Shown one piece after another: positions 1 to 47,417 of a stretch of 64,000 bases of DNA (positions within the stretch are counted from its first letter, which is position 1; each line of letters begins with the position of its first letter). The stretch covers positions 1 to 64,000 of the forward strand of contig JAFCMP010000170.1 in NCBI GenBank assembly GCA_017506865.1, in the 5' to 3' direction. The position numbers and the translations under genes were made by a program. The stretch comes from Tribonema minus (Eukaryota; Sar; Xanthophyceae; Tribonematales; Tribonemataceae). The notes under the pieces were generated by a model, which saw only the letters and a list, made by a program, of their open reading frames with translations, did no database searches and had not been told where the DNA came from.

Positions 1-526
1 TGCGCGTAACTGCTGTCGATACCTTAGCCAGGCCGCGCAGCAGCTCGTGCACCTGCAGGTTAGAATAAGGGGGTAGATTTGGGGTTAGGATTTGCCGCCT
101 GGTTGGTAGGTGCCACCTGCGGGTTAAGGTTTAGGGTGAGTAGTTGCGCGTCACCGCCGTCGATACCTTGGCCAGGCCGCGCAGCAGCTCGTGCACCTGC
201 GGGTCAGGGTTAGGGGTAGAGTTGAGGTTAGGGTTAGTAATTGCCACCTGTTAGGGTAAGGGGTAAAGTAAAGGTTAGGGATAAGGGGTAGTGTAAGGGG
301 TAGATATAGGGCAAGTAGTTGCAGGTCACGGTCGGGGTAGATTATAGATTAGGGTTAGGGTGAGTACTTGCGCGTCACTGCCGTCGAGACCTTGGCCAGG
401 CCGCGCAGCAGCTCGTGCACCTGCAGGTTAGGGTTAGGGGTAGAGTTACGGTTGAAGTTAGGGTTCAAGTTAGGGATTGCGCGTCACCGCCATGGAGACT
501 GATGCCAGGAGCAGCAGCTCGTGTAC
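1..526 (-). repeat. Three and a half copies of the TPS terminal exon
   Basis: Copies at 355-420, 131-196 and up to 52 (cut by the window edge) each encode VHELLRGLAKVSTAVTR after a CAG acceptor; the first two end KYSP-stop and NYSP-stop. A damaged copy ends at 526. Spacers hold TTAGGG-like tracts. Any of the three could serve as last exon. Confidence 0.8.
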
Positions 527-3500
527 CTGCACGCGACAACATGGTGAACGCGTGACAGTGAGTTGAAGTCAGGGTTAGGGACAAGGGCAAGCATCCTGCT
601 GCGTACATGCAAGGCATGCCTTCGGGGAGCTTCGACAGCACTATTTAACATCAATTGATGGGGTGCAGCCATTGTGTCAGCGCATGCACATGCGGAGCCC
701 TACACAGTACATCTTAGGCAGAAACGCATTGTGTTGGCATATGAGGACGAAACGTCACACATTGAAGGGCTTCGACTCTCTGCACAGTGGCTATCTGCAC
801 AGTGGCTACCAAGTGCACATGACCGAGGTTGTGTGCTGCCACTTGACTCCTAGTCGATGGCATGCAGAGTGGGGAGGCGGGAACAGGGCTGTGTTGAAGT
901 TTACAAGTGAGAAGTGGACGCATCTCTATTGGTCGCACATGCAGATGCGCCTCACAATGCATGCTTTCAACATCAAGACGATGACTGGTTTGGCTACCAC
1001 GCACACATGGCGCGGTTACCTGACAACGTACTTCAAATATGAGTTCCAACTTCAGCATCTGCGCTTTCTTTAGGCCACGACGCACGCACGACTGCAGAAC
1101 AGTGAGCGCTTGTCGCCTGCCTCTTCATGGGCTGACTTCAACTTCGACATCAGTGCCTTCATTGGTACCTCGCACACGCACGACTGCAGAATAGTGAGCG
1201 CTTGTCGCTTGCCTCTTCAATGTCGTTAACGTACGTCGCTGCATGACTGAAGTTGGGCGCTCTTACCTGACAACGTACGTCAAGTTTGACTCCCAACTTT
1301 AACATCAGTGCTTTGGGCAACGACACACACACGCCTGCAGGACAGTGAGCGCTGTCGCCTGCCTCCTCATAGGCTGACTTCACCTTCAACATCAGTGCTT
1401 TCTTTGGCTAACAAGCATGCACGACTGCAGATCTGTTCGCGCTTGTCGCTTGCCTCTTCGATGTCGTTGACGTAGGACGTCGCCTCCGTGGGCTTCTTGC
1501 CGACGGTGCACGTGTAGCAGTGCAGCGAGGACGTGGTCGGCTCCATCTGCGCCTGCGGTTCACAGAGTTCCATGTTGAAGTGAGAGCATGTTCGAGAGGT
1601 GCGAGGAAGGCCATGGCAGGCAGCCCGCAGGCACCACTGCAGCGCAGCAGGTGGCGGTTGGTAACAAAACAGGAAAAAGACACTGCATTCAGGGGCCCTG
1701 ATGATGCCAGACACTCGTTGAACAGCCGGGCACAAGGGGGGGGGGGGGGGCAGGAGGAGGGGAGCCTGGGCTGGTCCAGGTTGGTAGGCCCCTGAAGAGA
1801 GCTGCGGGCGATTCCATCGTGGTTTGATGCTGTAGCCAGCGGCGTGCACCAATGTCTGTTGCACTGCAAACGCGAGCTCGGACGTTCATCTTCACAAATC
1901 TGCCATTGTGCGAAAAGGGCTGGTTGGATCGAAGTGTGGACAAACAGTGCACGGAGTGTGATGGCCATATGGAAGCCAGCAGCAGCAGTCCTCACAAACA
2001 ACATGCGCGTTGGACTGCTCCATGCTCATGAACATGCCCCCATGTTAGGGCTATCGGCAGCGTCCGCGGTGGTGGCAGCACGCTGAGCACGCAGATTTCA
2101 CTGCTCCATGCTGATGAACAGGCCCTCATCTCAGGGTTAGGAGCACGCAGCAGTGGCGGTGTCAGCGGCCGGCGCTGCTGCAGGCTCGTGAATCTACCTA
2201 ATACCAGGGTAGGGTCAAGTGACAGCATCAGCAGCGGTAGTGGCGGCACGCTGATCACGCACCCTAAAGTGCTTTTTGTGCTTGTGAACCTGACCTCACA
2301 TTCAAAGTCAGCATTAGGTAAAGTGGCAGTGGCAGCATCCGCGACAGCAGTGGCCTCCCATCAGGACAAACACACCTTGCACTGCTCGATGCTGGTGAAC
2401 TTGACCTCATATTATGGAGTGTTGGCATCAGGGTCAAGTGGCAGCGTCTGCAACTGCCGCTGCAGCAGCTAGGGTCAGGGCCGAGTGGTCCCCCAACAGG
2501 ACAAGCACACCTTGCTGCTGGATGCTGGTGAACATGACCCCATCTTGAGGGTTAGCATCAGGGCCAACGCACCTTGAACTGCTCGTTTCGGTATTATCGT
2601 TAAGGTCCAGTGACGACAGCAGCAACACGGCAGCAGTCAGGGTAACGCAACTTGAATTGCTCGGCACTGGTGAACAAAACCTCACCTTAGCGTTAAGGTT
2701 AGGGTAAAGAAGCAGCGTCTGCATCTGCCGCTGCAGCAGCTAGGGTCAAGCGGTAGCAACAGCATCCACGGCCGCAGTCAGGACAAACGCACTCTGAATT
2801 GCTCGATGCTGGTGAACGTGAACTCATTCTTAAAAGAGTTGGCATTAGCGCCAAGTGTTCCCCATCAGGAAATGCACCTACATAGAACTGCTCGCTTAAG
2901 AGCTAGCATTAAGAGCATCAAGGTCAAGTGACAGCAGCAGCAATATGCATGGCAGCAGTCAGGACGAACGCACCTTGAACTGGCTCGATGCTCACGAACA
3001 TGTCCTCATCTTAGTGTCAGCGTGAGAGTCAGTGTTAGCATGAGGGTCAAGTGGCAGCAGCAGCGGCATTTGCGGTAACGGTCACAAAAGCGCACCTTGA
3101 ATTGCTCGATGCTGGTGAACATGACCTCATCCGAGGCCTCGTCGCCGAGCGCGAGGACAAAGTCGGGCGCCGTGCCCTGCGCGATCATGCGCTCGATCAT
3201 CGCGTCCACAAACGCGCCCTGCCGTTGAGGGGACGCAGTTAAGGGGGGGGGGGGGGGGGGGGGGTATGTATAGGTTGAAGAGGGGGTTAGAAACGCGGCA
3301 CTCGTGCTCGTGGACTCATCAGAAGATCGACGTGGGATGGGCGTCAGTTTTGCAGGCACCCAGGGAGGTTGCATGTCTGGCTTGTCCCTGTAGTCAAAGC
3401 ATACGAGATCCTGCACGTGAGCGCGGCTCGGTGGAAGCGGCCTTTGCATTATATTTCAAACACGGCCAGGTGCACTGTGAGTAGAGGCAACATTCGGGCA

Positions 3501-6500
3501 CTCGCTGTTTCTTCGTCGTGATGCGCGCGATCAGCGCATGCGCATAGCATGAGCAGCGGCCGCGCGTGCAGCTGCTTGCTGGTGCTTGCTGCGGTGTGGC
3601 AGCAGCGGCACATCCATGCGCTGTACAAGCATGCCCTTTTGACTGGCACAAACACGCACAGGGCAAGATGGTGCGTGATTGACACTTGCTGCACACAACG
3701 TGCTCCGTTGCCATGCAGCGGCAGTAGTGCCGACGGCACCACAAGCGCGGCCCCGCGCACAAGCCGCCAGCGACATCCAGAGCTGCCTCAGACTCCGTAC
3801 AAGGGCTTATGGCTAATGCGCAGTTGCTTGCGGCATGAGGGTGCGCGCGGCGCCGCGGCACTGTAAGCAGGCGCGAGCAGTTGCGGGGTCCTCGCTGCTT
3901 GCGCAGCAGCCTTTGTGCACACACCGCGCACGCGCGCTAGCCGGCCACGCTGCGCACGCGGCGGCACTGGTGATGACCCTAACGCGTCATGATGCAGTGG
4001 TGAAATTTTTGGGAGTGCAATGGGTAGGTAGGTATCGGGCCACGCTCCGCACGCGGCGGCACCTGCGATGACCCTACCGCATCATGACGCGTTGGTGAAT
4101 GCCATGGGTAGGTATTGGGTACTGCAAGAGTGCATACATACCTTGTTGACGCCCTGCGGTCGCACTTCGAGGTACCCGCCGCCGCTGCCGCCGCCGCCGC
4201 GCAGCACCTCGAGCGCGAAGGGCGTGAGGACGCTGATGAGGTGGTCCTCCAGCTCCTGCAGAATAAATGTGCAGGAAATAAGCTTCAACACGTGTTAGCA
4301 GATGGGGGGTAACAAAATGAATGTGCGTCAAGAAACAATGTTTGCAGACAGAGGTTGTCAGTGCTTCTGCCGCCGCCGCGCAGCACCTTGAGCGCAAAGG
4401 GCGCGACGACGCTGACGAGGTGGTCCTCCAGCTCCTGCAGAAAAGAATTGTGTGCAGGAACGCAAGTTCGACACATTTTTGCAGGTAGAGGTTCAATATC
4501 AACAAATGTGGAGAAACAGGACTTTTAATATGCCGGCAAGGAGCCTGTCGTCATCTGACGTCTAAGTACTGCAATAGCAAGATGTTACTTTGGAGCAGTC
4601 CATCCAGGGTACATGTGCAGTACAGAGCCGCTGAACTCACAAACCTTATTGGTGCGGTTTCACAAGGATATACGTGCTGTACCATCCTGCTGGGCTTGGA
4701 CAATGCTCACCAAGCTCGTGCTGCTAAAACAGGCACTCAGCCCGTTAAGTACAAAGCAGTTTTACGAGTACACACACACGTATGCAGGCGAGAACAAACG
4801 CAAATACGAGGCATGTGTGTGCACGCCTGTTCCCCATGTGGGTGCGCGCATGCGCGTGCGTATGCGAATACACATGTACTGCATGTCGGCCTGTATGCAA
4901 GAATGCACCATGTGTCTGTGCGTACGTGCACATCTGAATACTTCCGATGCGCGTGTATGCACGCATGTATCCAGTTTTAAGTGCATTCACATGCGCATGG
5001 ACTGAAACAACTTCAACAAGTACATGCTTCGCACTTGTACATGTATGTACGTATGCACGCATGCAGGCGTGCATGTAAGTTTCTGTGTGCATGCGCACCT
5101 TGCTCTGCAGGAAGCCGAACTCCGGGTCTGCGTCCCTGAACTGCCACAGCACAGCGCTGCCCTTCTCCTCAATGTACGTCCCGTGCGTGCGCTGTACGTA
5201 GATGTCCATGATGGTCTTGGTCAGCTCCTTCCAACTCTGGGCGTGACGTGTGCGTAGGTGTGTGGGTGGGTGGGTGGGGGGGGGGGGGCAGAGAGGAGAC
5301 AACGGACAGCCGTAAGAAATTGAATCGTAAACAGTGACTAGAGCTCGCCGCGTCTGAACGTCAATTACATCAGTTACTCATGTGCGTGGCGGCGCTTGAC
5401 TGATATGTTGACTTCGGCTCTGAGCGCGTATGTGCGCTTAAACTCAGTCGCATTGCGTCGAATCTGGCGAGGTGTGCACGCCAAGTAAGGGTACAGGTTA
5501 CGCATAGACGTTGAACGTGAGGGGTAAGCACCTGGTGTGCATCACGTAGCGCCGTCAGGCATGCACAACGCACAGACCAACCTTTCCTGTGCCCATTGCA
5601 TGTCTCCAACAGGATGTGGACAGTTAGTAGCTGGTCTTAATCGCGCACACACTGGCATCTCCGATGCCCATTGCAATTTCTCCCACAAGATGTGGACAGT
5701 TAGCAGGTGGTCTTGATCACGTGGCCCTGCCCCGCACGCACAATGCACAAACTGACACTGCCTGTATTCGTCAAGACATCTTCAACAAGACGTGGATACT
5801 TAAGACATGGATACTTCAACAGGACGTCAATACCTACGAACCTGGTCGTGCACTGCCACCAGCGTCTCCCAGTAGCCGCCCTGGGTGTGCTCGTGATTGT
5901 GGTCAAACCCCGAGGCGCCGTCCAGCAGCATGCAACGGTCCGGCTATGCCAGGAAAGGAGACGGCGCAGTGAGGCATGAGGAGTTTGTTCATTCATGAAC
6001 GGATAATGAGTGAACTGCTTGTACTTGATCGAACCCCGAGGCTCCGTCCAATAGCATGCAACGGTCCGGCTGTGCCAGGTCAGGATGAAATGCAGCGGGA
6101 TGTGAGGGGTTTGCTCATTCATGAGTGGGTGAATGAGTGAACTATTTGTGCTGGGTGAACCCCGAGGCACCGTCCAACAGCATGCAGCGGTAAACCTATG
6201 CCAGGACAGGAGCAATGCAGTGGGACATTGAGTGATTCATTCATGCATGGATAGATAAATGGATGAACGGTTTGAGCTCTGCCCAAAGGCAGCAGCGCCT
6301 TCCAACTGCATGCAACGGTCCGGCTGCGCAAAACCGCCCAAAAAATGCGGGTTGGGAAGGATTATATTCATCAATGAGCGATTGCGGCCAAACCCCGTGG
6401 CACTGTTCGGCGACTTGCAGTGATCCGGCTGCGCCAGGACCACGGTCGTAGATGAAAAGCGTTCGTTCGTGAATGAACTGACCGCTTTGGGCTGGTCCCA

Positions 6501-8604
6501 ATGTCATGAGCAGTAGAGGTCACTTCATGTACTGGGGTGCTGAGGCGCAGAAGCCAATCACCTGAGACGTGCGGCAAATTACTGCTGCAACTTTGACAAC
6601 TGCGTGAGGCGTATACGCAAGTTTCAAGTCAATTCAAAGTGATGTAGGGGGGGGGGGCTGGCGAACGTTGTCGCTGCTGCCACCGCTTTTATTTGGGGGG
6701 GCGACAAGCGACAAGCGCCCCTGCCCCCCCCCCCCCCCCCCCCCCCCTTACACAGTTGCACATGTTTGCATGAGCTGAGACAGGTGGTGGTGGTGGTGGG
6801 GGCAGACGCGGCGTGGCCCCATGTTCGCAGTCAACAAGGTGTTCATGCCCCGTTCAAGCGGCTCTGTTGCGCATCACGGTGGCAGGGCGAGAACCGCGCC
6901 CCTAGTGCTTCAAGCCAAGCCTGCAGTCCTGAACCCTAACCCTACACAAAGGGGGCATTTGAGCCCGATGCTTCGCGCCCAAATTCGATGCCACGAAAGG
7001 CGGCCTAAGTACAAGGATAAAAACTTGCCCTCTTGCCTAAAATTCTCTTCGAGTATGGCTACTTCCAGGCGAAGCGTGCAGCTCTAACCCTACAGCTAGG
7101 TCCTGCCGAGCGCTGACCTTAGGCCAGTGGAAGTACAGCCCGTGCTCCGCGGCGATGCCGAGGCCCTTGATGTCGCCCAGACCGGCGAGCACTGCCTCGC
7201 GCTCGCGGCCGCTGATTACAAACACCTGTCGCAACAGAACGGGGGAACGCGGCGCATTGAACAAACATCGAGGAGCCAAAGAGAGTGTGCAGTGCGAGCA
7301 CGCCGCTGATCACAAACACCTGTCGCAGCCGAAGGGAAAACCGGGCACATTGATTGATTGATTGAACATGGAGTGAAGAGCTGGACAGGAGCGCAAAGTG
7401 GGAGCAAACTCAGCGAGCGCAGAAGTGATCAGAAATACCAGTTGCTGCGAGAGCAGTGTGGCACGTTATCAATACAAAGAGTGAAGAGCTGGACTACTTG
7501 GAGTGCGTAGCGGGAGCAAACTCAGCGAGCGCAGAGGGCGCTACGCGACACCGTCGTGCGTGGGCCCTGGCAGCGTCCCGTGAGGAGCGCAAGCCGCTCC
7601 TTGATGTATTGTTTGGCTTGAAGTTGTTCAGAGGGAGTCCAACAACACACCCAGCAGCAACAAATGACGGCCCAGGAATTGCGAACGCGCGCGCACCGTG
7701 TTGCGCGGGTCTTGGCAGAGCCGCGTCAGCAGCGCCTTGAGCGCGGGCTGCAGCTGCGATCGGCAGCAGTACGCGCACATCATAGCCAACTCCAACTATA
7801 AATTGAAGTACTCCCGCATCACTCAAGCACCTCTGCATTACCCGACAGCACCACATTCAAGGGCTTCTGCATCACTCGACAGCACCACCTATGAAGGTGT
7901 TGATTTATCATTTTGTTATAATGGTCCACATGCAAGATGTGTACCGTGTTGCGCGGGTCCTGGCAGAGCCGCGTCAGCAGCGCCTTTAGCGCAGGCTGCG
8001 GCTGTGGCACCTCGACCAGCTTGGCGGCGACGGCGTAGTGCATGATGTCCTTCTGCTTCTCCTCCGGCAGGATCTGCGCAGCGCGGCAGCGAGCAGTGGT
8101 TTCGGGGTCAGGGCGTTGAGCAATCGCGGAATGAGTTCACGCACGGTCCAGAAGCCATACTTCGTACTTCTCTTTATGAATAGTAAGAAAGCGCCGCGCG
8201 CTGCATTCAGAAACAGAAGCAACCATCGCTCGTGCATGGAAGCGCACCGGCTGTGCCTTATGCTTGCCCTCTAGCACAACATGCGCAGCGGTGCCGCGAG
8301 CTGGGTGAGATCAAGGCCGAGTGCATCGTGTCCGGCAGGATCGGCGCCGCAGCGGCGGTCGGGGGGCACAGCACCGGGGGCGCAGCACCGAGCGACATGG
8401 TCAACGTGAGGGGCATGGTTCTGACGCGCGCATGTACAGTAGTGAGCGCACACTCGGACTCAGCCAGGCTCTTGAGAGAGAACCGCTGCAGCCTTAGAGG
8501 CAAACAGTTGCCAGTCATATAAAATGCGTCATCTCAGACTAACAGTTGCCAGCCTACAGTGTGCTTTGACTTCTCCTCCAGCTAGCTCTGCGCTCTGCGC
8601 CGAC

Positions 8605-8677
<73 letters not shown>

Positions 8678-11600
8678 GGAACAGAGCGCGGCATCACCCA
8701 TAAGGGCTTGCGTTTTGGAAGTTGCATGCTGCACCGCATACTTGTGGCTAATGGAATTGATGCGCTGCCCCGAAGGACTCATGAGAAACACTCGTGAGTC
8801 AGCGCCGCGCTGCATGGTCAGCAAGAAGCGGCAAAACCACATCGGGCGCGAGTGACATCTGCACAGCGGTGCCGGGAGGCGGCAGTGCCTGGAGAACGGT
8901 GAGCACTGGCGAGCGCTGGCAGCAGCGCTCCACCTTGTGTCTGAGACCGGACTTCACATGGCGGCTGCACAAGGGTGGCAGCACGTGGCTGAAATTGCGC
9001 ATGTGCACATGTAGTTGAAGTACTTCAAAGCTGTCGAGGCAGTTGGTACGCGGTCCTGCATCCTTCACGTTGTGCATCGGGGCCACAATGATGCATTGGA
9101 ATACAGTGTGCCGTACACCAGTGCTCGCACGCGAGGCACGCCGTAAGTACAGGGGATACTTTAGCACTTCACTTCAAAGTACAAGAGACACGATGACTCG
9201 CTGGAATGTGCGTTGTGACGTGTCGCACGCAATGCACGCCATCAGGGTCAGAGTGAGGGCGTAGGTAGGCAAAACTCTTTTATACGCGCGCGCACCGTGC
9301 CCCGTAGCGTGCTTCATTTAGGGTTAGGGGTAGGGTTAGGGATTGGGGGGTAGGTATGCATAGGCTCACCGTGCCGCCGTAGTCGAGGAAGATGATGCGG
9401 TGCTTCGCCGGCCGGTAGGTGCGCATGACCGCACTGTTGTCCAGCGGGCTGAGAGGGGGGGGAAAGGGGGGGGGGGGGGGGGGGCGCACAGAAGACAAGC
9501 GGTGAGCACGTGCAGGGCGGGGAAAGGGGGGGGGGGGGGGGAGCACGAAAGACAAGCAGTGAGCACGAGCGGGGGCAGGGGAGGAGGGGGGCGGGGAGGA
9601 GCACACAAGAGGTGAGCAGGTGCTGGTTCCTAGAGATATGGCTGAGTGATAACCTCAACCTCAAATTGAGGCGTGACTGTGCATTGTTGGCGCTCTGCAG
9701 CCACCGAGAAGCGCGCGGGAAGAAATATGAAGGGGTCAGGCTGAGGCACACCACCGGGAGCGACAGATAGAGCGAGAGACGAAAGCACTCGGCTCTGCTG
9801 TCAAGCCTTCTTCCAACGTGCATACGTGTCGACCGCCGTGAAGGTTACGACACGGCGATAACCTCAAGTTTGAAGGAAGGCCTGACCATGGATCGGCGTT
9901 CCGCAGCCGCTGAGAAGCGCGCGGTGAGAAATATCGTGGGGTTAGGCTAAGCCGCTGGGGCTTGCCGCATGCAGCGAGTGATGGATAGAGCACACCTGTG
10001 AATTAGGGTGAGGTTTAGGGTTAGGGTGGAGAGAGAGAGAGAGACAGAGAGCTCAGCCCTCAGCACTATCAAGTTTATCAAAACCTGAACTGCCGATGAC
10101 TTTGAAGTTCAGGCCGGCACCGACGAGCACTGGATCGCAGTCAGCAGTCTTGCCTGTGCAAACCCCGTTGTTACCTCCAGAAGGTGCTATGAATGTGATG
10201 CGCGTTTGTAAACTCGCCAAGGCGTGAAGGCACGGACCAGGAACCTGTGCCCATGTTGGTTCCCCTAAATGTCAGGCCGTGATCCACCAACACACGATCC
10301 CACCCGGCAGTCTTCCCTCCTCGAACTCTGAGGAATGTAACACTTTGAGAGATGTAACATTATCTGGACAAGATGCATGCCATGTCTGCGAGGCCTCAAG
10401 AACCACCTGAAGCCTGCGTCCATGCCAATGACCCTGAAGTTCAGGCCGAGATGACTAAACACACAATCCCACTCTGCCGTCTTCCCTCCACAAACCCTAA
10501 GAGCAGCTTGGAAAACCATATTGGTCATTACTAGAACGGGATGTTTGCCATATTGCGAGGCCTGAAATAGCGCACCTGAAGCCTGCGTCCATGCCAATGA
10601 CCCTGAAATTCAGGCCCAGTCCAACGGGACTCATGATGGACCTGTCGGCGCTCTTCTGTATGCTCTTGAGATCCTTGAGGACCTGCGGCAGGGCGGCAGT
10701 GACAAGCAGTGCTCAGCAATGGCGATAATATGCGCTCCGAAGACGACGCCTGTTCGCAAAGCTATTTCAGTATGTATATCGGTGGATCGGCGGGGGCGAG
10801 GGGGAGAATGGGGGGTGTATCGCCTACCGTGCATAGTCAAGCATTGCAATGCAGATCTGTCATACATGAACACTATGTTTGTTCACCACAGCATGCTTTA
10901 AGCAGTTGCCAGCAGTGTTATGCTACAGCCGGTTGCCGATTGGCCGATTTAATGTACTATCCACTGTGGGGGTGCAGCACAGCCGCCGGGACGGCGCACG
11001 TTCCTCTGAAAGGGGAACAGGCCTTCAAGAGTGTAAAGTTTTTGCGAAGAGTCTGGGATGGGCAGCAGCATGTGCATCGCTCCTTTCTTGGCGCCAACCA
11101 GCAAGACTACAGTAGGCACACAGCTGTAGCAGCGTACTAGCTGGTAGGCTATGTAGCAGAGAAAGCAAGGAAATGCCACGTCAGCTACCCAATGCGCAAC
11201 GCCTCGCGGCGCCGGAGCAGCAAATAGCGGAGCAACAGCAAGCCATCCAGACGCTGCAAGCCGCTAACGAGACCTTGCAGGCAAACAACGCCAAGGCTGC
11301 GACGAGGGAGAAGGTGGCGACTGTCGAGTGGCAATTGGCCGGCTATGTACGGTCGGCTCTTATCCGGGGTGGCGGGCCGCACAGATTTAGGTTCGCCGTA
11401 ACCAAGGAGAGCGAACGCGCGATGGTCATAGGCGACATCATGCAGGCAGCCAGGATAGACTTCGGCCTCACAAGTACACTGGTAGAGGCCATGTGGGTGA
11501 AAGGCGTCCTTACACCCGACATGTTCCTCACCAGCAGTATGGCTGAGAAATAGGGGGGGTAAGGCGAAACTGGCGTCACCACGTTCGCGAGGCTGCACGC

Positions 11601-31369: not shown

Positions 31370-31945
31370 ATGATTGCGCCACGTGCGGCTGCATTAGGAC
31401 AGCCGCCATTCGCCGACAGGGCCATCCTGGCCAAACAGCTGAGATTCAGGGCCGTGGCACGCAAGTATGCAGAGCTTCTGGAGGCAGCGCTTCAGGACAT
31501 CGAGGCCGCTGAGAGGGAGGAGCAAGAGGCAGATCGGGACAGGCGCAGAAGACTGAAGTGCCCGCAGCATGCCGCTCATGAAATCACCAGCCAGGAAGTG
31601 CAGCAACAGCAGCAGCAAAGCGGAGTGGCTGATCACCAGCAGCAGACCTCCCAGCCGCCTCCTCCGGATCCTGCGCTAGCGGGCGCAGCAGCAGCAGCAG
31701 CACCATTGCAGCCATCCGCCGACATCGGCGCCTCCGTCATTGATGGCGGCGCTGGTGCTGGCGAAGCCGTGGAGGGACAGGCTGCAGCAGCGAAGTCGGC
31801 AACACGGTCGCAGAGGCCCGCAGCGCCTCCGCCGACAGCGGTGTCTCTGCTTGCAAGCATGGCCGAAGCAGCGGGGGGAGGGAGGCAAGCCGGTTCTGGG
31901 AAGCGAGGGGACGTCCATCGGGCAGCTGTGGCGGGAACCCCTCAG
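31370..31945 (+). other. Tentative N-terminal exon of the polymerase gene, or a separate small gene
   Basis: An open frame of 192 codons from ATG 31370 (an upstream in-frame ATG is at 31328) reads through to CAG|GTTATG, a usable phase-0 donor that matches the phase-0 acceptor at 33361. The first third looks like an ordinary amphipathic or coiled-coil helix (ILAKQLRFRAVARKYAEL, then an Asp/Glu/Arg-rich stretch); the rest is Gln-, Pro- and Ala-rich low complexity. The TATA box upstream and the orientation favour it being the start of the polymerase gene. Pol lambda N-termini are variable, so the sequence cannot confirm it. If it is a separate gene the frame continues to a stop at 32111-32113. 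Confidence 0.45.
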
Positions 31946-37900: not shown

Positions 37901-40618
37901 CCATGTTGACTTGTTACCATACTCCAGCTTTCAACGGTCGAACTTTGCGGCGCGTTCTTGGCGCACACACAGGCAAACCTGGCTGTATCAGCTACTTGTT
38001 GCGTTGGGCGTATTGACGGTTTGCCCAGTGAGTTTTAGTCGACCCTGCCGTCAATCACAACCCTACTTGCCTCACCCTCAAGCTAGTGCCATAACCCCAT
38101 CGCACCGAGCCTCTTGCCCGTAATCGGTCACCTACCCCACCGCTCGATGCGGTTCCTTGTGGACGGTGGCAGCCGATGCTCGTATGGAACTGTAAATGCC
38201 CGTGAAAACGCCTTTTCCACACGTGCAAATCTGCAACTGTGCGCAGCATGTCCATGGACTGCAGCAAAGTGAAGCGGCTGTTAGGCAAGCATTCAAGCTC
38301 ACCCTTAACCCCATCTTTAACCTCCACACCTTCCCGGTCGTGACACATGGCGCTCCAATATGGCCACGACGAGTGTCGTGTTGGCCCTGTGTCGGTACTA
38401 TGCTCACACTGGGCAATCGGGACAGGTGGTGCACCTCTTCAGCCGCGGCGACCGACGTGTTGGGCGTTGCAGCGCCCCTACCGGCTTTGCCGCGGCCCCA
38501 CAAACCCTAACATTCACCCTTACCCTTCCGCGTACTTCGGTCGTGACAGGTGGCGCTCCTATTCGGCCGCGGCGACCGTCGTGTCGGGCGGTGCGGCGGC
38601 CCTACCGGCTTTAAGACGGCCTTACTAAGCCTGACCTTAACCCTCACCCTGCTGTAATTCCGGTTGGGACAGGTGACATTCCTATCGACCGTCGTATCGG
38701 GCGTTGTGGCGGCCCTACCAGCTTTGTGGCGGCCGTATTAATCCCCTAACCCTCACCCTTGCTGTAACTCTGGTCGGGACAGGTGGCACTCCTATCGACC
38801 GTCGTGTCGGGCGTTTTGGCGGCCCTACCGGCTTTGCAGCGTCTCCACAAACCCTAACCCTAACCCTTACACTTACCCTCTTGGTACTTCGGTCGTGACA
38901 GGTGGCGCTCCTATCAACCGCTGTGTCGGGCGTTGTGGCGGCCCTACTAACCCTCACCCTAACCCTTACCCTTCGTCTTACTCCGGTCGTGACAGGTGGC
39001 GCTCCTATTCAGCCGCGGCGACCGTCGTGTCGGGCTTCAAGCGGCCGCTCAAGACGGCCGAGGACCTGCGCGGCGTGCGCGGCCTCGGAGCTAAGATGGT
39101 GCAGGTCAGGCCGAGAAGTATGGACTTCAAGTACATCTTGAAGTAGGTGTATGTTAATTGCACTGCGGCAAGTGTTGGCACGCCGCGGGCTCAGAGCTAA
39201 GATGGTGCAGGTCAGGCCCGGAAGTTTGTACTTCAAGTACTTCTTGAAGTAGTGTACTTCTGAAGTATGTTCATTGTAGCACTGCGGCGAGTGCCGGCAT
39301 GCTGCGGCCTTGGAGCCAAGATGGTGCAGGTCAGGCCCAGAAAACATCTACTTCAAGTACTTCTTGAAGTATTGTTGCTTCAGCAAAGCTGCGAGCGTCG
39401 TAGGCGCTGTCACATGCGTCGCAGCAGCGCTTTGCCACTGTGGTTTACTGCAAATTTCGCTGCGGCATGTGATGACCACAGTGTGAGCCAAGGCACTTTC
39501 TTTCAAATTGGAAATCACTACCTGTCACAGACTGCCTTGCCTCTTGCCATCCCCCACAAATGTTGTGCTCAGCTCGCGCCGGTTCCTGACAGCAGTGAGG
39601 AGCTCGAGTTCGCACACTGTAATGCAAGTGACCTGCTGCCACTCAGACTCTGACTCCTGTACGACTCGCTGCAGAACATCGCCGAGATCATCGAGACGGG
39701 AGACCTCGAGCTGAAGCACGCCCTCCTGGCGCAGGTACGCTAGCCCCACTGTCTGCAACGCTGAGACACCCCGCTGTAACGATGCCACGCCGTTCTTCAT
39801 GCATCTCAACAGCATTGCATAGAAAGCTTTGTCGTGGATGAGTACGAGTCATTCAAAACGACTCACTTGAACCACAGCAAACAGAGTCCAAAGCAAGTGG
39901 ATGCATTCTCGAAAGAACGCATTCTTAGTGCTTGCGCGAGAGCAGGCCCTGCCTATACTCCCACTACAGGGCGCAGTTTATGCTGATTCGGGGGCGGTGC
40001 GCCCAGCTCACAGTGGTGGATGATTTTGGAGACGCATCATTCGCGCTATCAGACGCTCTGAGCACTGCAGCAGCCAGTTTATTCATTTTTTTTACGAGAC
40101 ATTGTGCCAGGGGAGCCCTGGTCCAGCGCGGCGGCAACAACAGGAGCGGATGAAGAGAACCGTGTCGATTTTACGCGTATCGGGCGCTGCGTACATTGAA
40201 GCAATCAGGGGGCCTCTGCGATGCGGGTGCCCTGCATGCGTCGCCCCCGCCGACACCGGCGATGATTTCCGACACGGCCCATGAATGCGCGCTGGATGAA
40301 AGGAACTTCGCTACACGCTCATTCTCTGAGCCATGCCATGCGGCACCGATTAGAATGGCTGACGGCATGCAGAGAGCTGTCAATGCCTATCATGCTGGCT
40401 CCACATATGTCACAATGGCACAGCGTGAGCGTACGCGTCTGCCGCGCCACCAACGCGTCAACCCCCCCCCCCCCCCCGCGCGCAGCTGAAGCCGATGAAA
40501 GACCTTGGATGAACAAGAATATTCTTCATGTTCATTTCTGATCGTGCTCATTTCTGAGCATGCTCATTTCTGTTGGCATGGCGAGCGCACGCTGCACCAC
40601 CAATGCCTCAAATGAACG

Positions 40619-40653
<35 letters not shown>

Positions 40654-43600
40654 GCAGCTGAAGCCAACCAAGGACCTGTGCGGCGTGTGGGGCCTCTGAG
40701 CCATGCCATGCGGCACGCACCTACTGCACCACCACCGTCTCATTCGAATGCCCCCCCCCCCAACCAACGAATCTCCCCCCCCCCCTCCCACGCCCCCGCA
40801 GCTGAAGCCGATGAAGGACCTGTGCGGCGTGTGGGGCCTTGGGCCGATGACGGCCAAGAAGCTCATTGAGATGGGCATCACGTCGATACCGGAGCTGCGC
40901 CGCCGCGCTGCGGAGGACCGCGCCAAGAGCCTGCTCACGCACCAGCAGGCCATAGGTGAGCGCATGATGCTTTCTCTCGCGCACAGTTTACATGTTGTTT
41001 GTGATTCCATTTGTGCGTGGCAAAACGGCCGAGGTGCTGGTACCTCTGAGCTGGGCATTGCAGGAGGGCGCGCCAAGTGCCCGCTTACGCACCAGCAAGC
41101 CATAGGTGAGCGCACGAGCGCCGCTGCCTCCTTTCACGCACAGATTACGTGTTTATTTGTGAGTCCGTAGGCGCGTGACATCGCACCGAAATGGCCGAGG
41201 TAGTGGTACCTTTAGATGGGCTTGACAGCCAACCGCGCCGAAATCCTGCTCACGCACCAGCACGCCATAGGTGAGGGCACGAGCGCCGCCGGCGTCTCTT
41301 TTCGCGCACACCTTTGTGCTTTTGTGAGTCCGTGAGTGCATGGCGGAAGCAGTGCCTGAACGCTGCGCACATCACTTGGACTTTGTTTGCCAGTACTGGC
41401 GGGCATCGCAACATGACAATTGACCTGGGGCTGTGCACGGCGCCCGCAGGGCTGCTCAAAACAGCGCACATAGGTGGACACACAGCGTGCGTCTGCCGTA
41501 CTCGACATGTGCACTCGTTCAAATACCCTCAGAGTGGCTCAATCACACTTACCAATTCCAGACTCTGCAACACAGTGCTCTCAAGCCGATTTTCCTTGAC
41601 GCCTATTGTGGTGATGTTTGCGGCAGTTCTCTGCGTTGGTGGGCACTGTGACAACACACAGAGTGCCTGCCGTGCGCGAGACGTGCATTCTTTGTGCTGA
41701 TCCTGGAAGAAGCACGGTGACGTGTTGTGGAATATGACAGTTCCCTCGCAGCACGCGGGCCGCTTGCTTTTTACGTTGCGACAACGCGTAGCCGCACGCC
41801 GCCCTCCCCATGCAACCTCTGCATCGCTTCGTCGGCCGTGCGCTGCGAAAACGGTGATGTGTGCGCATGACATCCGTATGGCGTCACAAGGAGTAGCCAC
41901 CGGCGTATCTGACGGCGGAAATGCAGCCTCTCTTGCACACACAGGACGCGCGCCTGTACGCACTGCGATCACACGTGGCTGCACGCCGCCCTCGCAGTCT
42001 CTGCGTCAATTCTCTCCATCTGCCGCTCGCTGTAAGCCAGGGCTGCGCTACTACGAGGAGCTGCAGCAGCGCATGCAGAGGGACGAGGCGACGGCCATTG
42101 TCGGCGTCGTCAGCGCCGCCGTCCAAAAGCTCTGCCCAGGTAAAGTGTCACTGTCAGGTTGACTGCCTGCTGTCTGGTGTTCTATGGCACGTGCGTCAGC
42201 GCGCGCAAGTACCTTCTACTCTGAAGTATCACTTACAGTCTTCATAATTTCCATCGTCGAGCAACAGCCATCGTCAGCGTCGTGAGTGCCACCGCCCGGA
42301 AGCTGTGCCCAGGTGCAGCTTCAAACAGCTGTAACTGTCAGATTCCCCGCCAGAAGTCTGGTTTACCACGGCGACGTGCGTCAGCGCGCCACAAATATCT
42401 TCTTATTCGAAGTAGCAGTATCACTCACGGTCTTCATCACTTTTATGAGTGTTGTTGTGGCCGTTTTGTCACAGCGGCGTGAGCGCCACCGTCCAGAAGC
42501 TGTGCCCAGGCAGTTTTAAACGCTTGTAACTCTCAGATTCCCTGCCGGAAGTCTGGTTTATTACGACGCCGTGCATCAGCTCGCCGCAAATATCTTCTAC
42601 TTCGAAGTAGAAAAATCACTTGCGGTCTTCATCATTTTTCTAAATGTTTTGGCTGTTTCTGTCAAGCAATAGCCATTGGCGGCGTCGTGAGCGCCGCCGT
42701 TCAGAAGCTGTACCCAGGTGCAGTTTCAAACAGCTGTAACGTTTTTGTCAGATTGCCTGCCGGCTGTCTGGTTTGCTACGTCAGCGCATGTCAGCGCACC
42801 GCATTTCGTCTGGGTCGTATCTCTACGGCCGACGCTACCGCACACTGCAGTTCAGCTGAGTCGGACCTTTTCATCAACCGCAGCCGTCTCCATCACTTTT
42901 TTTCCATGTTGTGGCCATTGTCACCAAACGACGGGCGCCATCGGCGTCGTGAGCGCCGCCACCCTTGCGCCGTGTTCTGATGCGTTTTGACTTAGGGTTA
43001 GGGTCAGGGCAGCATGCCCATGTATTCTCTTTACGATCATATTCTGCAAAAAAAACCTACAGTTTTGATACATGGTGAAAACGTCATAGATGTACCTGGA
43101 CGGGTGTAGCATTTATTTCGTGGAGTTCGTGCTTTTACTGGTTTATTCACTGTTGCCTCCTGGCTGTGGGGTCCCACGTGGCATTTCACCTGGGTCGTAC
43201 TTCTCATCAGTGCAGCCATTTTTGCATTTTTGGCACATCATCAAGAGCCCGAGTCATGATAAGGTTGTGACGGCACATATGCCGTTTTCACCTGCCCTTG
43301 TTATGCTTACATACCCTTTGCCACCCTCGCCCGCAGGCGCGGGGTGCATCGCCATGGGGTCCTACCGCCGAGGCAAAGAGACGTGCGGTGAGTAAAACCA
43401 CCGTAAATGATGAAAGCAGTGAACATACTGCAGCATTGGAAGCCGATAAATGCCATTGCATATTTTCTAAACGGCTTGCGCCACTCTTCATTTTTCAAAA
43501 GCATGCTTTGTGGCTTGAGCAGCCACGATGACGACTGCAAGAAGTCATGGACAGTCTGGTGTCAACTCTTGAGCACATAGATGAGTAGACTAATATGCTC

Positions 43601-46600
43601 AAGTGCCTGTGAGCTTTGCTCGTCACAATGGTGCAAGCGACTTTGCCATTGTGGTGCTGCCTGCATGCCTCCAAGTACAACATAAATATCTTGAAGTATG
43701 GCTTCCCTTGTTATATTGTTGATGCATATAAAGTGGCACAAATCATCCTTCCCGAAGTAGGAGAATAATATATTCACCATCACGTGCATACGGGACGTGC
43801 TTGTCATTCCGCTGCAGGCGACGCGGACATTTGGTGGTGCTGCTGTCCGGCCAGGAGGCGTGCAAGTGGGTCATGCTCTCAAGGCATAATGAAAACAATG
43901 CTTCTCTCAACAGATAGCACAAAAAAATAGCTGTCCACCTGTGATGTACTCGTTGTGCTGCTGCAGGCGACGTTGACATCCTGGTGGTGCCGCCGTCGGG
44001 CCAGGAGGCATGCGAATAGGTCATGCAGCCACAAACAATCCTTCCTTCAACAAGTGGTACAACAACGTGATTAACGTCAACTTGCGATGTATTCGTTGTG
44101 CTGCCACAGGTGACGTGGACGTCCTGGTGGTGCCGCCGTCGGGCCAGGAGGTGTGCGAGTGGATCATGCAGCCGCTCCTCGCGCTGCTCCACGACCAGAA
44201 CTTCCTCACCGATGACCTGGCCGGCGGGTGAGCGCTGCTGCCACTGAGCAGCGCTGACGCTGAGTTGGTTGCATGCGGAAGTTGACGTTGAGTGAATTGC
44301 ATGCGGAAGTTGACGTTGAGTAGTTTGCTTGCCAAAATTGAAGGTGAGTGGTTTGCATGCGGGAGTACGTGTTGAGTGAACCGCAGGTCTGACTCAGTAC
44401 CTGTAGTGCCGAAAGCCCTGAAGTCGAAGTTGTAAGGAGCTTGCTGCGTCAAGATTTTTCAACAGTGATGCTACATAGTCACTTGAAGTTATCTTATGAG
44501 GCGTAGTCAGAACCCTTCTTGATGCAGGCTGCCTCCTATATATTTTCTTGATGATTGTTTCGCATCCCAGATGATCTAGAAAACTATTGATTTTCTCAAC
44601 AACAAAAGAATGGGGTTAAAACATCAGGCGGATTATCGAGAGCAAAATTTGCACATCTGTTTTTTCAACAATGCATCAAAAGTCATTTCGAGCAGGATTG
44701 CCGCTGCAGCGCCTCTCCGCGTTCTCATTGTTTCCTTCATGACAGAGCAGAGCAGCACCACCATACCCCAGCGGTAACATGCCTACCTACCCTAGGCTGA
44801 TGCCATCGGTACAGCAGCACTCACACTTAGAGCATCACGCGCCCTGCTCTAGCGTCTCGTGCTCTGCTTCAAATTGGCCTGTTTGCTCCACCTCTGACAC
44901 AATGTTGAGCGGCGCTCAACCGTCACATTTGCGCATCCGCGTATGAGCTTCCCTCTCACTTCACATTTTGCGCACCCGCCGCAGGCCGACGGAGGCGACG
45001 CAGAACTTTGGCCACTTCAAGCACCGATCGCGTGGCACCGCCCCCGAGGAGAGCGTCAACCCCCTCTCGAAGCACGTCATGAGCTACATGGGCGTGTGCC
45101 AGCTGTCACCAACGCACAGCCACCGGCGCATCGACATCAAGGTATGGTTTTAATAACAGGGTGTATGCCGTTTATTCTGTTGCACACAATTGGCACATGC
45201 CATATATTATGTTGGAGAACGAGGGGTACATGCTAGGCATGGCAGATTCGTGACACACAACTGTGTTGCAGCTGCCACAGCTCTGTTTTTACATGAGGAG
45301 AAGGAATAGATGTCTTTTCGTTGAAATCTAAACTTGATGCTCAGCGCGGCACCAAAAAAATAAGCAGAGCACGTCATGAGCTACATGTGCGTGTGCCAGG
45401 CGACGCGGCTGCGACCACCGGCGCATCAGCATCAAGGTGTTGCATCATCAACTTGCTTGCATTTATGACCAAAGTGTGCTGATTCATGCATGCTCGTCAA
45501 CTCACACGGTCGATTCTGTTGAGTCAAACTTGAAAGCCCCTTAATACCACAAACAGGCCTGTGATCTCCTGCTCGTGGATCAAGTGCGTATTCACAGACA
45601 TATTTTGCTGGTCAAAGAAGTAGTGCTGTCGTGCTTTTCAGCTTTGCATGGGCACCAGCGGCCCCTCTCGGACCCCTCACCTCCCAAGACCGCGTTTGTT
45701 GGATTCAGCATTCACACCTTAGTGGCTGCGAGCTTACCACTGCTCAGTCATAGCTGTGATCGCTGGATGACTTTGCAAAGCCTGATACAGGCAGCAGCTA
45801 TGACTTCGCAGCCTGAGAGAGGCAGCAGCTGCTTCAACGGCAGCAGGGGGTCTCTGTGCAAGCAGGGGTTGGATCATTTGCCTGCCTCTAAAGGTCCACG
45901 GAAGCTAGAGACCCTCGATATCAGCATATTCTCGTGTACAGATATATTGCTGGCTCCAGTCGTCGAGAAATTGAGGTCGCCATGACATGATCGACTCGAA
46001 TACATACTTGGACTAGGAAACTCAATGACTTTTACGAATACTGGAACAGTAACCTTGAAAACTTGAAAACTTCAACAGCAAACGATGCAAGCCAGGAAGT
46101 AAGGCAGTCCGAGCTGTCATCAACCATGTTGAACTTGAGTTCACGCAGAGCTCAAAAACGTCAACCAACCATTTGCCTCAAGTTGAAGTTCCACCCGCCG
46201 GCCATCGCAGGTGTACCCGCGCTCCCTCAGCGCCTTCGCGATGCTCTACTTCACCGGCAGCGACTACTTCAACCGCAGCATGCGCTTCCACGCCATAAAG
46301 ATGGGCCGCTGCCTCAGCGACAAGGGCCTGTACCCGGTGACGCGCGGCAGCAAGGGGGAGATTCTTTGGCGCGGCAAGTGAGTGCGCCATGCTTTTGAGC
46401 ACGCAGTGTCCCGCCGCCAAGGTGCTTCGGGGCTGCTTGCGTTCACCGCGCGGTTTGCTTTGCAGCGTGCACACTTTCTGACTCGCTCGACGGCAGTTTG
46501 TGCAAGGGCCTGTACCCGGTCACGAGCGGCAGCAAGGGGGAGATTCTCTGGCGCGGCAAGTGAGTGCGCCGCGGTGTCGTGCACGCAGCGTCCCGCTGAC

Positions 46601-47417
46601 CAGGTGCTGCAAGGTCATGCTTGCAGCGTGCGCAACTTCTGACTTGCTGGACGCCACGCTGCGTTTTGGTGACAGTTTTCCGCGCAGTCATTATGTCAAC
46701 AACTCGTCCCGCTCTTACGACGAGTGACTCTGTTGTTGACTCGCTGCGTCTAGGCTTTTTCGTGCGTGGAGCAGGGTGAGGCTTGTCCTTCTGTCATGAC
46801 TTGTGCTGTTATGCCTGTCTACCGTGCCTGTGGAATTGGGTACCAGCGCCGCAAAATTCCCAGCTTGCGTGCACCTGGAGAGTCAACTCACCGCACTTCG
46901 TTTTAGGCGCACTCGTTTTGATCGCTCAGTCCGTGGCCTGCCGTGCGGGATCATCTCGAGCATGGACGCGAGAGGCGTGCGCAACGCTTTCAGACTGTGG
47001 TGCAGCGAGCCTGACAAGCGCAGCGTAGGCAACAGCGCAACACCGCCAACCAACACCGCTGCTTACATCAAGATGTGCTAAAGCGCTCTGTCATTGACTC
47101 AGTGGCTGCTGTCATTGCTTGCGCAGGATCACCTTGCGCTGGAGCCACGGGACTCCAGCGTATTATGCTGTAATGCTGCACGCGCCAGAGTTTTGAGCCG
47201 CTCAGTGACCCATGCCAGCTCGCTCTGTTGATGAGTCTTTCTCTGTTCGACTCAACCGCGCAGGAGCATCGCGTGCATGGAGGAGAAGGACGTCTTCGAC
47301 GCGCTCGGCCTCGAGTACAGGGCGCCACACGAGCGCAGCATCGACGAGTCCACCGCGAGCGCCATGCTGGAAGCCGCGGAGGATGAGGAGGGTCCCGGCG
47401 ACGGCCCCGCCAATTGA
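31370..47417 (+). CDS. POLL: DNA polymerase lambda-like family X polymerase (BRCT + Pol X core)
   Basis: A repair polymerase of the Pol lambda type, acting in the nucleus in base excision repair and end joining. Exons joined in phase: 33361-33510, 34470-34651, 35837-36074, 36440-36490, 37455-37495, 38996-39104, 39675-39734, 40802-40955, 42041-42139, 43337-43387, 44110-44227, 44985-45141, 46211-46377, 47264-47417 (576 codons plus TGA). An upstream exon 31370-31945 fits in phase and would add 192 residues, but is tentative. Domains in order: basic NLS-like KRARVAKGKK, BRCT (GLCIYVVRLGS..RRIRD through AWLQGCL), Pro/Ala linker, 8-kDa domain with helix-hairpin-helix, second HhH (GVWGLGPMTAKKL), GSYRRGKETCGDVDVLVV, HRRIDIKV, YFTGSDYFNRSMR and EKDVFDALGLEYRAPHER near the end. 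All three metal-binding aspartates are visible. The intron after 36074 is GC-AG (AAG|GCGAGT). The length matches animal and plant Pol lambda. The dRP-lyase lysine position is Asn. Introns carry many exon echoes and poly-C tracts before acceptors. Confidence 0.92.
32843..32925 (+). other. tRNA-like pol III promoter pair (pseudo-tRNA or SINE head)
   Basis: An A-box match TAGCGCAGTAG at 32850-32860 and a B-box match GGTTCAAATCC at 32892-32902 have tRNA spacing (42 bp start to start), and a T-run follows at about 32923. The acceptor stem and D stem do not pair, so this is not an intact tRNA. It may be a decayed tRNA or the head of a tRNA-derived SINE. It lies between the tentative first exon and the BRCT exon of the polymerase gene. 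Confidence 0.45.
33361..36074 (+). other. BRCT domain exons of the polymerase
   Basis: Exons 33361-33510, 34470-34651 and 35837-36074. They encode YLSGLCIYVVRLGS, then MLLNRVLDAGGAV, TTHVVADASVPRDA, VVVASLAWLQG and CLAERALLPLL, the beta-alpha order of a BRCT with the conserved late Trp. BRCT domains of Pol lambda recruit the enzyme to Ku/XRCC4-ligase IV complexes in animals. A Pro/Ala-rich linker follows and ends in KTKLACQRK at the GC donor. Confidence 0.85.
33880..34900 (+). repeat. Echoes on both sides of polymerase exon 34470-34651
   Basis: Acceptor-side copies of GACAGATGCTGCTGAACCGT are near 33917, 33995, 34108 and 34270 (two are close to perfect). Donor-side copies of GGGTGGGGCGCGCACGCGGA and the CAGGGGTGAGCATAC junction are at 34722-34800 and 34858-34895. 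Confidence 0.88.
35636..36180 (+). repeat. Echoes on both sides of polymerase exon 35837-36074
   Basis: An acceptor-side copy of about 100 bp at 35636-35734 (CGCAGGTGCCTCGCAGAGCG). A donor-side copy at 36145-36180 repeats GGAAGGCGAGTAACGCGCGT, preserving the GC donor. Confidence 0.85.
36245..36428 (+). repeat. Tandem duplication before polymerase exon 36440-36490
   Basis: GAGGTGATGCGGCTGATTT ... CTGAGCGTTGCTGC occurs twice, about 113 bp apart, in the intron just upstream of the acceptor. Confidence 0.85.
36440..40955 (+). other. 8-kDa (dRP lyase) and helix-hairpin-helix exons of the polymerase
   Basis: Exons 36440-36490, 37455-37495, 38996-39104, 39675-39734 and 40802-40955. They encode NKFIADVLSEVAELYKSNG, FRWRSYSAAATVVSGF, LRGVRGLGAKMVQ, NIAEIIETGDLEL, then DLCGVWGLGPMTAKKLIEMG and LLTHQQAIG. 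The spacing from the first HhH to the second equals that of human Pol lambda by eye. The 5'-phosphate-binding lysine position (AKM) is kept; the next lysine that forms the Schiff base is Asn. Confidence 0.87.
38338..39340 (+). repeat. Six-fold acceptor-side array and donor-side copies of polymerase exon 38996-39104
   Basis: CGGTCGTGACAGGTGGCGCT and GTCGTGTCGGGCG(T/G) units begin near 38338, 38415, 38530, 38655, 38770 and 38890 before the true acceptor at 38995, separated by CCCTAACCCT-like tracts. Donor-side copies of GAGCTAAGATGGTGCAGGTC lie at 39191 and 39310, each followed by an ACTTCAAGTACTTCTTGAAGT palindrome-like block. Confidence 0.9.
40462..41284 (+). repeat. Echoes of polymerase exon 40802-40955 with poly-C tracts
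   Basis: Acceptor-side copies at 40482-40510 and 40653-40700, each preceded by a C-run (40462-40477, 40619-40651) as is the real acceptor (40751-40761, 40775-40785). Donor-side copies at 41069-41125 and 41228-41284 repeat ACGCACCAGCAxGCCATAGG. Confidence 0.88.
41740..42970 (+). repeat. Echoes around polymerase exon 42041-42139
   Basis: Donor-side copies at about 42259-42312, 42470-42512, 42670-42720 and 42940-42965 repeat the GTCGTGAGxGCCxCC and AGAAGCTGTxCCCAGG ends; period about 200 bp. Acceptor-side fragments lie in 41740-42000. Confidence 0.8.
43815..44030 (+). repeat. Acceptor-side echoes of the catalytic exon 44110-44227
   Basis: Two copies after CTGCAG encode GDADIWWCCCPARRRA in shifted form (43819) and GDVDILVVPPSGQEACE then a stop (43969). 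Only 44110 continues to a donor. Confidence 0.88.
45366..45438 (+). repeat. Donor-side echo of polymerase exon 44985-45141
   Basis: CACGTCATGAGCTACATGTG ... CACCGGCGCATCAGCATCAAGGT copies the exon end; the metal-binding aspartate codon is Ser in the copy (RISI), so it is non-functional. Confidence 0.88.
46490..46566 (+). repeat. Donor-side echo of polymerase exon 46211-46377
   Basis: GCAAGGGCCTGTACCCGGTC through GGCGCGGCAAGTGAGTGCG is an almost exact copy of the exon end and donor. Confidence 0.9.

Follow-up and report, generated by a model that had tools for sequence, protein, structure and literature searches.

Most introns of two genes in the studied window, a stretch of 64,000 nucleotides of the Tribonema minus genome (C170:1-64000), were found to contain copies of the edge of their own neighbouring exon. 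Four genes were recognised in this window, encoding a bifunctional trehalose-6-phosphate synthase-phosphatase (TPS-TPP; the gene is called TPS below), a DNA polymerase lambda-like protein (POL), a beta-lactamase-fold hydrolase and a PRP39/Suf-type HAT-repeat protein. The copies, here termed echoes, were characterised in the introns of TPS and POL. The best explanation for them, which we regard as likely, is frequent local direct duplication of segments of typically 100-260 bp that is blind to exon borders and is filtered by selection. The assembly comprises 158.2 Mb in 554 contigs and is that of an alga, with 92 matches to light-harvesting proteins, for which the PDB matches are mixed, and an 18S fragment (locus L032).

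Splice junctions are echoed in their own introns

Each splice junction was represented by a query of 60 exon and 40 intron bases, which was searched in its own intron, and the cut-off for an echo was set at the 99.5th percentile of a null obtained from non-adjacent introns. Fifteen of the 31 donor junctions were echoed in their own downstream intron (TPS 9/21, POL 6/10) and 17 of the 31 acceptor junctions in their own upstream intron (TPS 13/21, POL 4/10); the wrong-side controls, with each query searched in the neighbouring intron on the other side, gave 0/29 for donors (TPS 0/20, POL 0/9) and 2/29 for acceptors (TPS 1/20, POL 1/9). At least one echo with a score of at least 36 was present in 24 of the 31 introns (TPS 15/21, POL 9/10). 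A sequence-only reading of this DNA had proposed that most introns of these two genes hold copies of their own exon edge, with the donor copies lying downstream and the acceptor copies upstream, and both the frequency and the arrangement are borne out by these counts. Its figure of at least 20 exons holds only just, as an exon-containing echo with a score of at least 40 was found for 20 of 33 exons (TPS 13/22, POL 7/11).

Across six genes, 22/29 donor and 23/30 acceptor echoes reached 6 nt or further beyond the junction in either direction. The exon-side edge of the echo fell inside the exon in 24/25 donor and 19/21 acceptor cases, counts from which two query-edge artefacts (C534 14 and C2 6, from the TPS paralogues on contigs C534 and C2) are left out. 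Whole-exon tandem duplication, or mutually exclusive exons, was rejected as a candidate because of these edges and because all ten indels between exons and echoes shift the frame. Detectable copies made up 29% (TPS) and 27% (POL) of non-exon DNA. The description of these introns as built from echoes was therefore right about the presence of the copies, but the extra copies represent just a part of intron length.

Gene models and positions of the echoes

The TPS gene was modelled with a purpose-written spliced protein-to-DNA aligner, for which a plant TPS protein sequence served as the scaffold, and a Pfam search identified the domains PF00982 (E=1.5e-64) and PF02358 (E=2.4e-38). The models of TPS and POL are homology-based, and their exon borders were checked by eye and by reading frame. 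TPS exons E2 to E22 join in one open frame and E15 (7945-8073) supplies residues otherwise missing from the model; the first exon or exons are uncertain, and the model may lack a small exon located between E8 and E9. All but one of the 21 TPS donors modelled have GT. The exception is the GC donor of E21 (1454-1546), which reads GCAAGC, and the best echo of this exon also has GC. The stop codon of the last exon (window 340-420) is apparently supplied by a CCCTAACCC telomere-like repeat, and copies of the region 340-420 are located at 1-92 and 145-235.

POL was assigned with phmmer against PDB DNA polymerase lambda (best match 9ewd, E=3.6e-41). The starts of the first and ninth POL exons are uncertain, and a further exon, outside the model, is likely near 35814-36050. 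One exon is tentatively labelled BRCT-like by resemblance; the Pfam search gave no match for that exon. Genes, exons and echoes have the following positions in the window.

381..24821, minus strand: TPS-TPP gene, 22 exons modelled
24723-24821, 23621-23815, 22612-22773, 21400-21509, 20697-20829, 19888-19985, minus strand: TPS exons E1-E6
18760-18859, 17735-17830, 16229-16306, 15494-15624, 14265-14388, 12789-12875, minus strand: TPS exons E7-E12
10576-10682, 9370-9448, 7945-8073, 7118-7225, 5842-5880, 5099-5236, minus strand: TPS exons E13-E18
4142-4255, 3096-3218, 1454-1546, ~381-420, minus strand: TPS exons E19-E22
23735..24332, minus strand: acceptor-side echo array of TPS E2, offsets 160, 324 and 487, score 122
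23447..23565, minus strand: donor-side echo of TPS E2, offset 169, GT kept
22446..22533, minus strand: donor-side echo of TPS E3, 93% over 88 nt, offset 153, GTGAGT kept
17435..17653, minus strand: two donor-side echoes of TPS E8, offsets 92-224
17932..18243, minus strand: acceptor-side echoes of TPS E8
14960..15410, minus strand: donor-side echoes of TPS E10 at three places
15762..15854, minus strand: acceptor-side echo of TPS E10, 87%, offset 200
14445..14707, minus strand: three acceptor-side echoes of TPS E11, one 97% identical
10263..10450, minus strand: donor-side echo of TPS E13, offset 169
7695..7756, minus strand: donor-side echo of TPS E15, 62 nt, 93.5%, offset 248, spacer not duplicated
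4363..4484, minus strand: acceptor-side echo of TPS E19
2349..3010, minus strand: multi-copy array of donor-side echoes of TPS E20
1009..1369, minus strand: donor-side echoes of TPS E21, GC donor still GC in the best copy
33400..47417, plus strand: POL gene (BRCT-like part, fingers, palm, thumb), 11 exons used
?-33510, 34470-34651, 39013-39104, 39675-39734, 40802-40955, 42041-42139, plus strand: POL exons 1-6
43337-43387, 44110-44227, ?-45141, 46211-46377, 47264-47417, plus strand: POL exons 7-11
33887..34390, plus strand: acceptor-side echoes of the POL BRCT-like exon
34722..34916, plus strand: two donor-side echoes of the POL BRCT-like exon, GTGAGC kept
35632..35731, plus strand: acceptor-side echo of the unmodelled, likely POL exon near 35814
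38417..38983, plus strand: acceptor-side echo array of the POL exon at 39013
39184..39375, plus strand: donor-side echoes of the POL exon ending at 39104
40592..40695, plus strand: acceptor-side echo of the POL fingers exon
41069..41333, plus strand: donor-side echoes of the POL fingers exon
42261..42803, plus strand: donor-side echoes of the POL palm exon
43811..44030, plus strand: acceptor-side echo of the POL palm exon at 44110
46503..46608, plus strand: donor-side echo of the POL thumb exon, 88%, offset 182, spacer duplicated too, a true tandem unit

The duplications are local and direct

Comparison of the window with itself by BLASTN revealed 103 direct pairs that are local, with less than 5 kb between the copies, against 5 direct pairs at greater distances and just 3 that are inverted; six 10-kb first-order Markov sequences analysed as a control gave no pair. 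The copies from this self-comparison were 34 to about 500 bp long. When the exon coordinates were laid over it, as had been suggested together with the earlier claims, echoes were found at the junctions on the predicted sides. Three TPS paralogue loci on other contigs contained 96 direct local pairs (C534 52, C2 33, C149 11) and no inverted pair. This direct orientation speaks against template-switching repair, which yields both orientations. The offset of the copies lay between 100 and 260 bp for 114 of 199 pairs (between 100 and 200 for 82 of them), and the larger offsets include multiples of the unit. Pair identities ranged from under 65% to 98%, which indicated that the process is long-running and agrees with the earlier claim that it recurs repeatedly.

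An assembly artefact would be a trivial source of such copies, and we practically discount it, because the copies are not identical, their differences amounting to about 2-36%, and because units of this kind turn up in several genes located on different contigs. Dispersed elements such as introner-like transposons were considered as the builders of these introns as well, introners being commoner in aquatic eukaryotes (PMC9860276). However, a 2.5-kb query (22400-24900) found just itself and a local copy in the whole genome, and a 10.6-kb query (33800-44400) gave short dispersed matches at two places, neither of them on a listed echo; the latter result is a lower bound, as the window itself was missing from the matches listed. 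Near-identical introns in unrelated genes were not found for these two stretches, both searched genome-wide, and an origin from dispersed elements is scarcely credible here. The stretches 34966-35148 and 40347-40430, which lie off the listed echoes, have degenerate matches (70-97%) at at least 24 other places in the genome and are probably dispersed elements themselves.

Duplication appears to enlarge existing introns

The sequence-only reading had attributed the creation of these introns to the same duplication process, as in the Rogers model, which derives both the origin and the enlargement of introns from tandem duplication of exonic segments with AG|GT. The birth signature of this model, an intron 3' end resembling the upstream exon end together with an intron 5' start resembling the downstream exon start, was present in 0/31 introns of TPS and POL. 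When all 71 introns of the six genes were taken together, 2 and 3 lay above the 99th percentile, compared with 0.7 expected; all of these are paralogue introns, mostly from C534. Of the 40 paralogue introns 4 passed, including three in C534, parts of whose model are doubtful. Many junction-crossing copies carry intron sequence, and those introns would therefore predate the duplication. Moreover, four intron positions of the window seem to be common with paralogues (residue 155 with C534, residues 200 and 298 with C2, residue 438 with C149); among these introns, E5/E6 and E8/E9, both seemingly common with C2, bear echoes and the other two do not.

The high frequency of local direct duplication within genes here would suit the Rogers model, and so would the potato intron gained via a duplication across an intron-exon border (PMC4974935). 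Nevertheless, the absence of the signature, the intron sequence within the copies and the echo-bearing introns at seemingly common positions leave the model largely refuted for the TPS and POL genes, and we give it a very slim chance. The proposed creation of introns thus finds no support, whereas their enlargement is supported, if less directly, by the median intron length of 968 nt with an echo versus 688 nt without (two genes). As judged from the sequence, duplication appears to enlarge existing introns and to add false splice sites to them rather than to create introns.

Echoes decay neutrally

In 22 exon-echo alignments, differences were found at 32/401, 19/398 and 52/397 of codon positions 1, 2 and 3, respectively (0.080, 0.048 and 0.131). 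None of the ten indels was a multiple of three, so that all of them shift the frame, and stops occurred in 2/385 echo codons. The alignments gave an exon change rate of about one third of the neutral rate. This is the pattern expected of free copies that face a constrained exon and decay neutrally. The splice dinucleotide was retained in 25/26 donor echoes (the remaining one has GC for GT) and in 19/22 acceptor echoes, figures that are biased upward since alignment across the junction was required, and neutrality at the observed divergence would lead to nearly as much retention. GT retention was dropped as a proof of selection because the alignment across the junction is built into the test. 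The mean donor strength of 25 echoes was 7.97 versus 9.13 for their own real donors (p=0.014), 11 echo donors being weaker, 3 stronger and 11 equal.

Functional alternative or regulatory exons under selection would account for the kept dinucleotides and for some copies that are 93-97% alike though their spacers do not match. This role of the echoes is nonetheless very unlikely in view of the frame-shifting indels, the weaker donors and the near-neutral, upwardly biased dinucleotide retention, and also because positions 1 and 2 change about half as fast as position 3, as if only the exon were constrained.

Exon borders and the visibility of copies

The earlier claim, as we read it, tied the process to exon borders. 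Windows of 60 nt that consisted of intron sequence only and avoided splice signals (TPS, POL, C534 and C2; cross-gene null 0.8%) had a local copy in 35/98 border-adjacent versus 212/638 interior cases (p=0.65), and two stricter thresholds gave 29/98 versus 178/638 and 19/98 versus 136/638. A query that contains exon sequence keeps one conserved partner and is therefore recognisable for longer, so that the fair test of targeting uses intron sequence only. As the intron-only windows show no border excess, duplication looks blind to borders and the tie was not confirmed. From the decay rates, a divergence of about 1.35d was computed for exon-linked pairs versus 2d for intron-only pairs, which predicts a visibility ratio of about 1.5; the observed ratios were 1.3, 1.4 and 1.75 at thresholds 30, 36 and 44.

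We propose that local direct duplications, typically of 100-260 bp, would arise often in non-coding DNA irrespective of exon borders, and that selection would remove those that damage an exon; wholly intra-exon duplications were not seen, 0/80 pairs having both copies inside exons. A duplication crossing a border would be tolerated, since the copy attached to the rest of the exon would keep the splice site while the other became intron, and the spare copy would then decay neutrally. Exon-edge copies, having one conserved partner, would remain recognisable longer than intron-only copies, which would give the introns the look of being composed of exon echoes. The outcome would be longer introns with many false splice sites. 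The molecular step may be slippage or unequal exchange, or else staggered breaks may be filled in and joined. Some copies may have lost their spacer through deletions at a later time, the alternative being the insertion of a copied stretch nearby. The data speak directly for the locality, the direct orientation, the lack of a border excess in intron sequence and the neutral decay. Among 40 young rows (at least 84% identity), 5 were adjacent and 20 were spaced with a matching spacer (z>4), for example 46321-46608.

Several observations weigh against this explanation. Fifteen of the 35 spaced young rows had no recognisable spacer duplication, for which simple tandem duplication needs a later deletion. 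All six pairs that are at least 95% identical match 96-164 nt short of the offset, one of them in a tandem array, and none of the six is a complete tandem. Donor echoes start on or near CAG in about 8/25 cases by a hand count, which is above our expectation. Exon-terminal windows matched more often than interior ones (40/91 versus 212/638, p=0.046), an excess that reached p=0.0013 at threshold 44. Repeat clusters touched exons about twice as often overall as at random, with 19/28 in TPS versus 10.4 expected (p=0.0017) and 9/11 in POL versus 3.8 expected (p=0.0003), and borders lay within copies in 29/64 cases versus about 19 expected (TPS p=0.02, POL p=0.10). Finally, the sharp differences in echo density among genes (C46 0/12 introns, C534 11/13) are left unaccounted for.

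We ascribe the border excess to copies of conserved exon sequence remaining visible for longer, which requires no targeting, though weak targeting may contribute. A reading in which transcription or splicing directs duplication to exon borders (through R-loops, nascent RNA bound by the spliceosome, or breaks at exon-intron GC steps) would fit the repeat clusters that touch exons more than random placement, the junction queries matched in 15/31 and 17/31 cases versus 143/594 and 144/623 for intron-interior queries, and the GC content of exons (0.64-0.68) versus introns (0.55-0.56) in TPS and POL. Yet the intron-only windows show no excess beside borders and the size of the excess is about that expected from exon conservation, which makes such targeting unlikely. 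It is likewise improbable that such guidance to the borders, for instance through R-loops or through breaks at the edges of spliced exons, makes the introns of this lineage gather discarded copies of their own junctions and become long in this way. If this were true, the spliceosome would be faced with many near-copies of a junction and would need to use the outermost one, and splice-site choice would hang on position or exon definition, not on site strength.

Echoes as decoy splice sites

Nineteen intronic GT sites in TPS and POL match the median real donor, and about 12 of these 19 strongest decoy donors are echoes of the intron's own donor, as assigned by similarity of the preceding exon end (score of at least 25). 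The suggestion that the spliceosome is presented with many decoy sites is thus well founded. In the gene models it is the first of the donor copies and the last of the acceptor copies that function, because just that copy joins the rest of the exon. The introns therefore offer a natural graded series of copies of real splice junctions, GC donors included, beside the functional sites, which allows a direct test with RNA reads of how the spliceosome chooses among near-identical sites. They are also a warning, as gene predictors and spliced aligners can put exons in echoes (e.g., TPS E15).

Echoes at other loci of the genome

Four TPS paralogues on other contigs (C534, C2, C149 and C46) were modelled for comparison, exons shorter than 50 nt being left out; besides the doubtful places in the C534 model, its phosphatase half is unreliable. 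Echoes were present in 11/13 introns of C534, 5/9 of C2, 2/6 of C149 and 0/12 of C46. The wrong-side controls in these four genes gave 4/36 for donors and 3/36 for acceptors, 6/7 of them in C534. The C46 paralogue (C46:776501-784500) has short introns, lower GC content, mostly GTA donors and no local repeats, and its median intron length of 435 nt was the shortest, the other five genes having medians of 852-1028 nt, which is in line with the proposed growth of introns by duplication. Intron positions mostly differ among the five TPS genes, which suggests high intron turnover or old divergence.

Two kinesin genes, picked for exons about 1 kb apart, had echoes at 5/6 and 3/5 exons; the lowest score counted was 34, and the null maximum was 30 in 600 comparisons with the exon ends of the first gene. 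Local-repeat coverage in 13 arbitrary stretches was 0 to 42% for twelve 10-kb stretches and 93% for a 3-kb contig end. The echo pattern extends beyond the window, to some TPS paralogues and to two kinesin genes on other contigs. At the loci modelled outside the window, echoes were found in C534, C2, C149 and the kinesins but not in C46.

The view that echoes are gene-specific agrees with these strong differences between genes. The hydrolase gene, said to show none, indeed has no echo, but it is not free of duplication, its sole local pair being the following feature.

53628..53769, plus strand: 65-bp tandem duplication in the hydrolase gene, non-coding

Further observations in the window

The region of the HAT (PRP39-like) gene contains 5 local pairs, one of them at the exon starting near 62434, and 9 pairs lie between 25.1 and 33.3 kb, outside the gene models. 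On the minus strand at 25500-29100, more exon-like frames with echoes of their own were observed (e.g., 25932-26120 and 28235-28590), which may be either the 5' part of the TPS gene or another gene. A pure GCA run of 23.7 copies is located at 8605-8675 and a run of 33 C at 40619-40651. The window contains 14 interstitial telomere-like 12-mers, (CCCTAA)2 or its complement, overlapping ones counted (e.g., at 12549, 13454, 38851, 348, 10014 and 42991), and 23 more occur in 200 kb of other loci. As a possible source of branch points, 4/30 gene-sense telomere-like motifs in the TPS gene lie at most 60 nt upstream of an acceptor.

A search with a TPS exon in bacterial and viral contig collections found no relative. 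Two viral loci were rejected as TPS relatives, the match spanning just 19 residues and one of them, L001, reading as phage-like DNA. A plasmid search gave no match.

Comparison with known systems

In potato, an intron of the RdRp gene was gained by a tandem duplication crossing the intron-exon boundary (PMC4974935). There, as in the alga, a local duplicated segment crosses the boundary and takes splice signals into the copy, but the potato case yielded one new spliced intron, whereas the alga has dozens of decaying copies inside existing introns of several genes. The Rogers/Hellsten model of intron gain by AGGT duplication, described in the same article, likewise involves tandem duplication of coding-region DNA, but its signature of intron birth was not found in TPS and POL. 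Small tandem duplications that arise from the fill-in of staggered breaks by CST-Pol alpha-primase (PMC8355091) are direct and local like those of the alga, and adjacent, as some of the algal copies are. Fill-in may be the mechanism in the alga as well; the algal units differ in being typically 100-260 bp long and in that some copies are spaced. Introner elements (PMC9860276) resemble the echoes in that algal introns are affected in several genes, but the echoes are without dispersed copies in the two stretches searched. Short direct repeats of 4-30 bp near both borders of one intron (PMC11782384) are, like the echoes, direct repeats near splice sites; the algal copies are 34 to about 500 bp long, and one border is copied into the intron.

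The ingredients of the process are known, namely tandem duplication, boundary-crossing duplication (PMC4974935) and break fill-in duplication (PMC8355091). The open-access literature, to which this search was confined, yielded no report of a genome where, in several genes, the majority of introns contain graded copies of the borders of the same intron. Our observations suggest a route by which introns may grow through local duplication without transposons.

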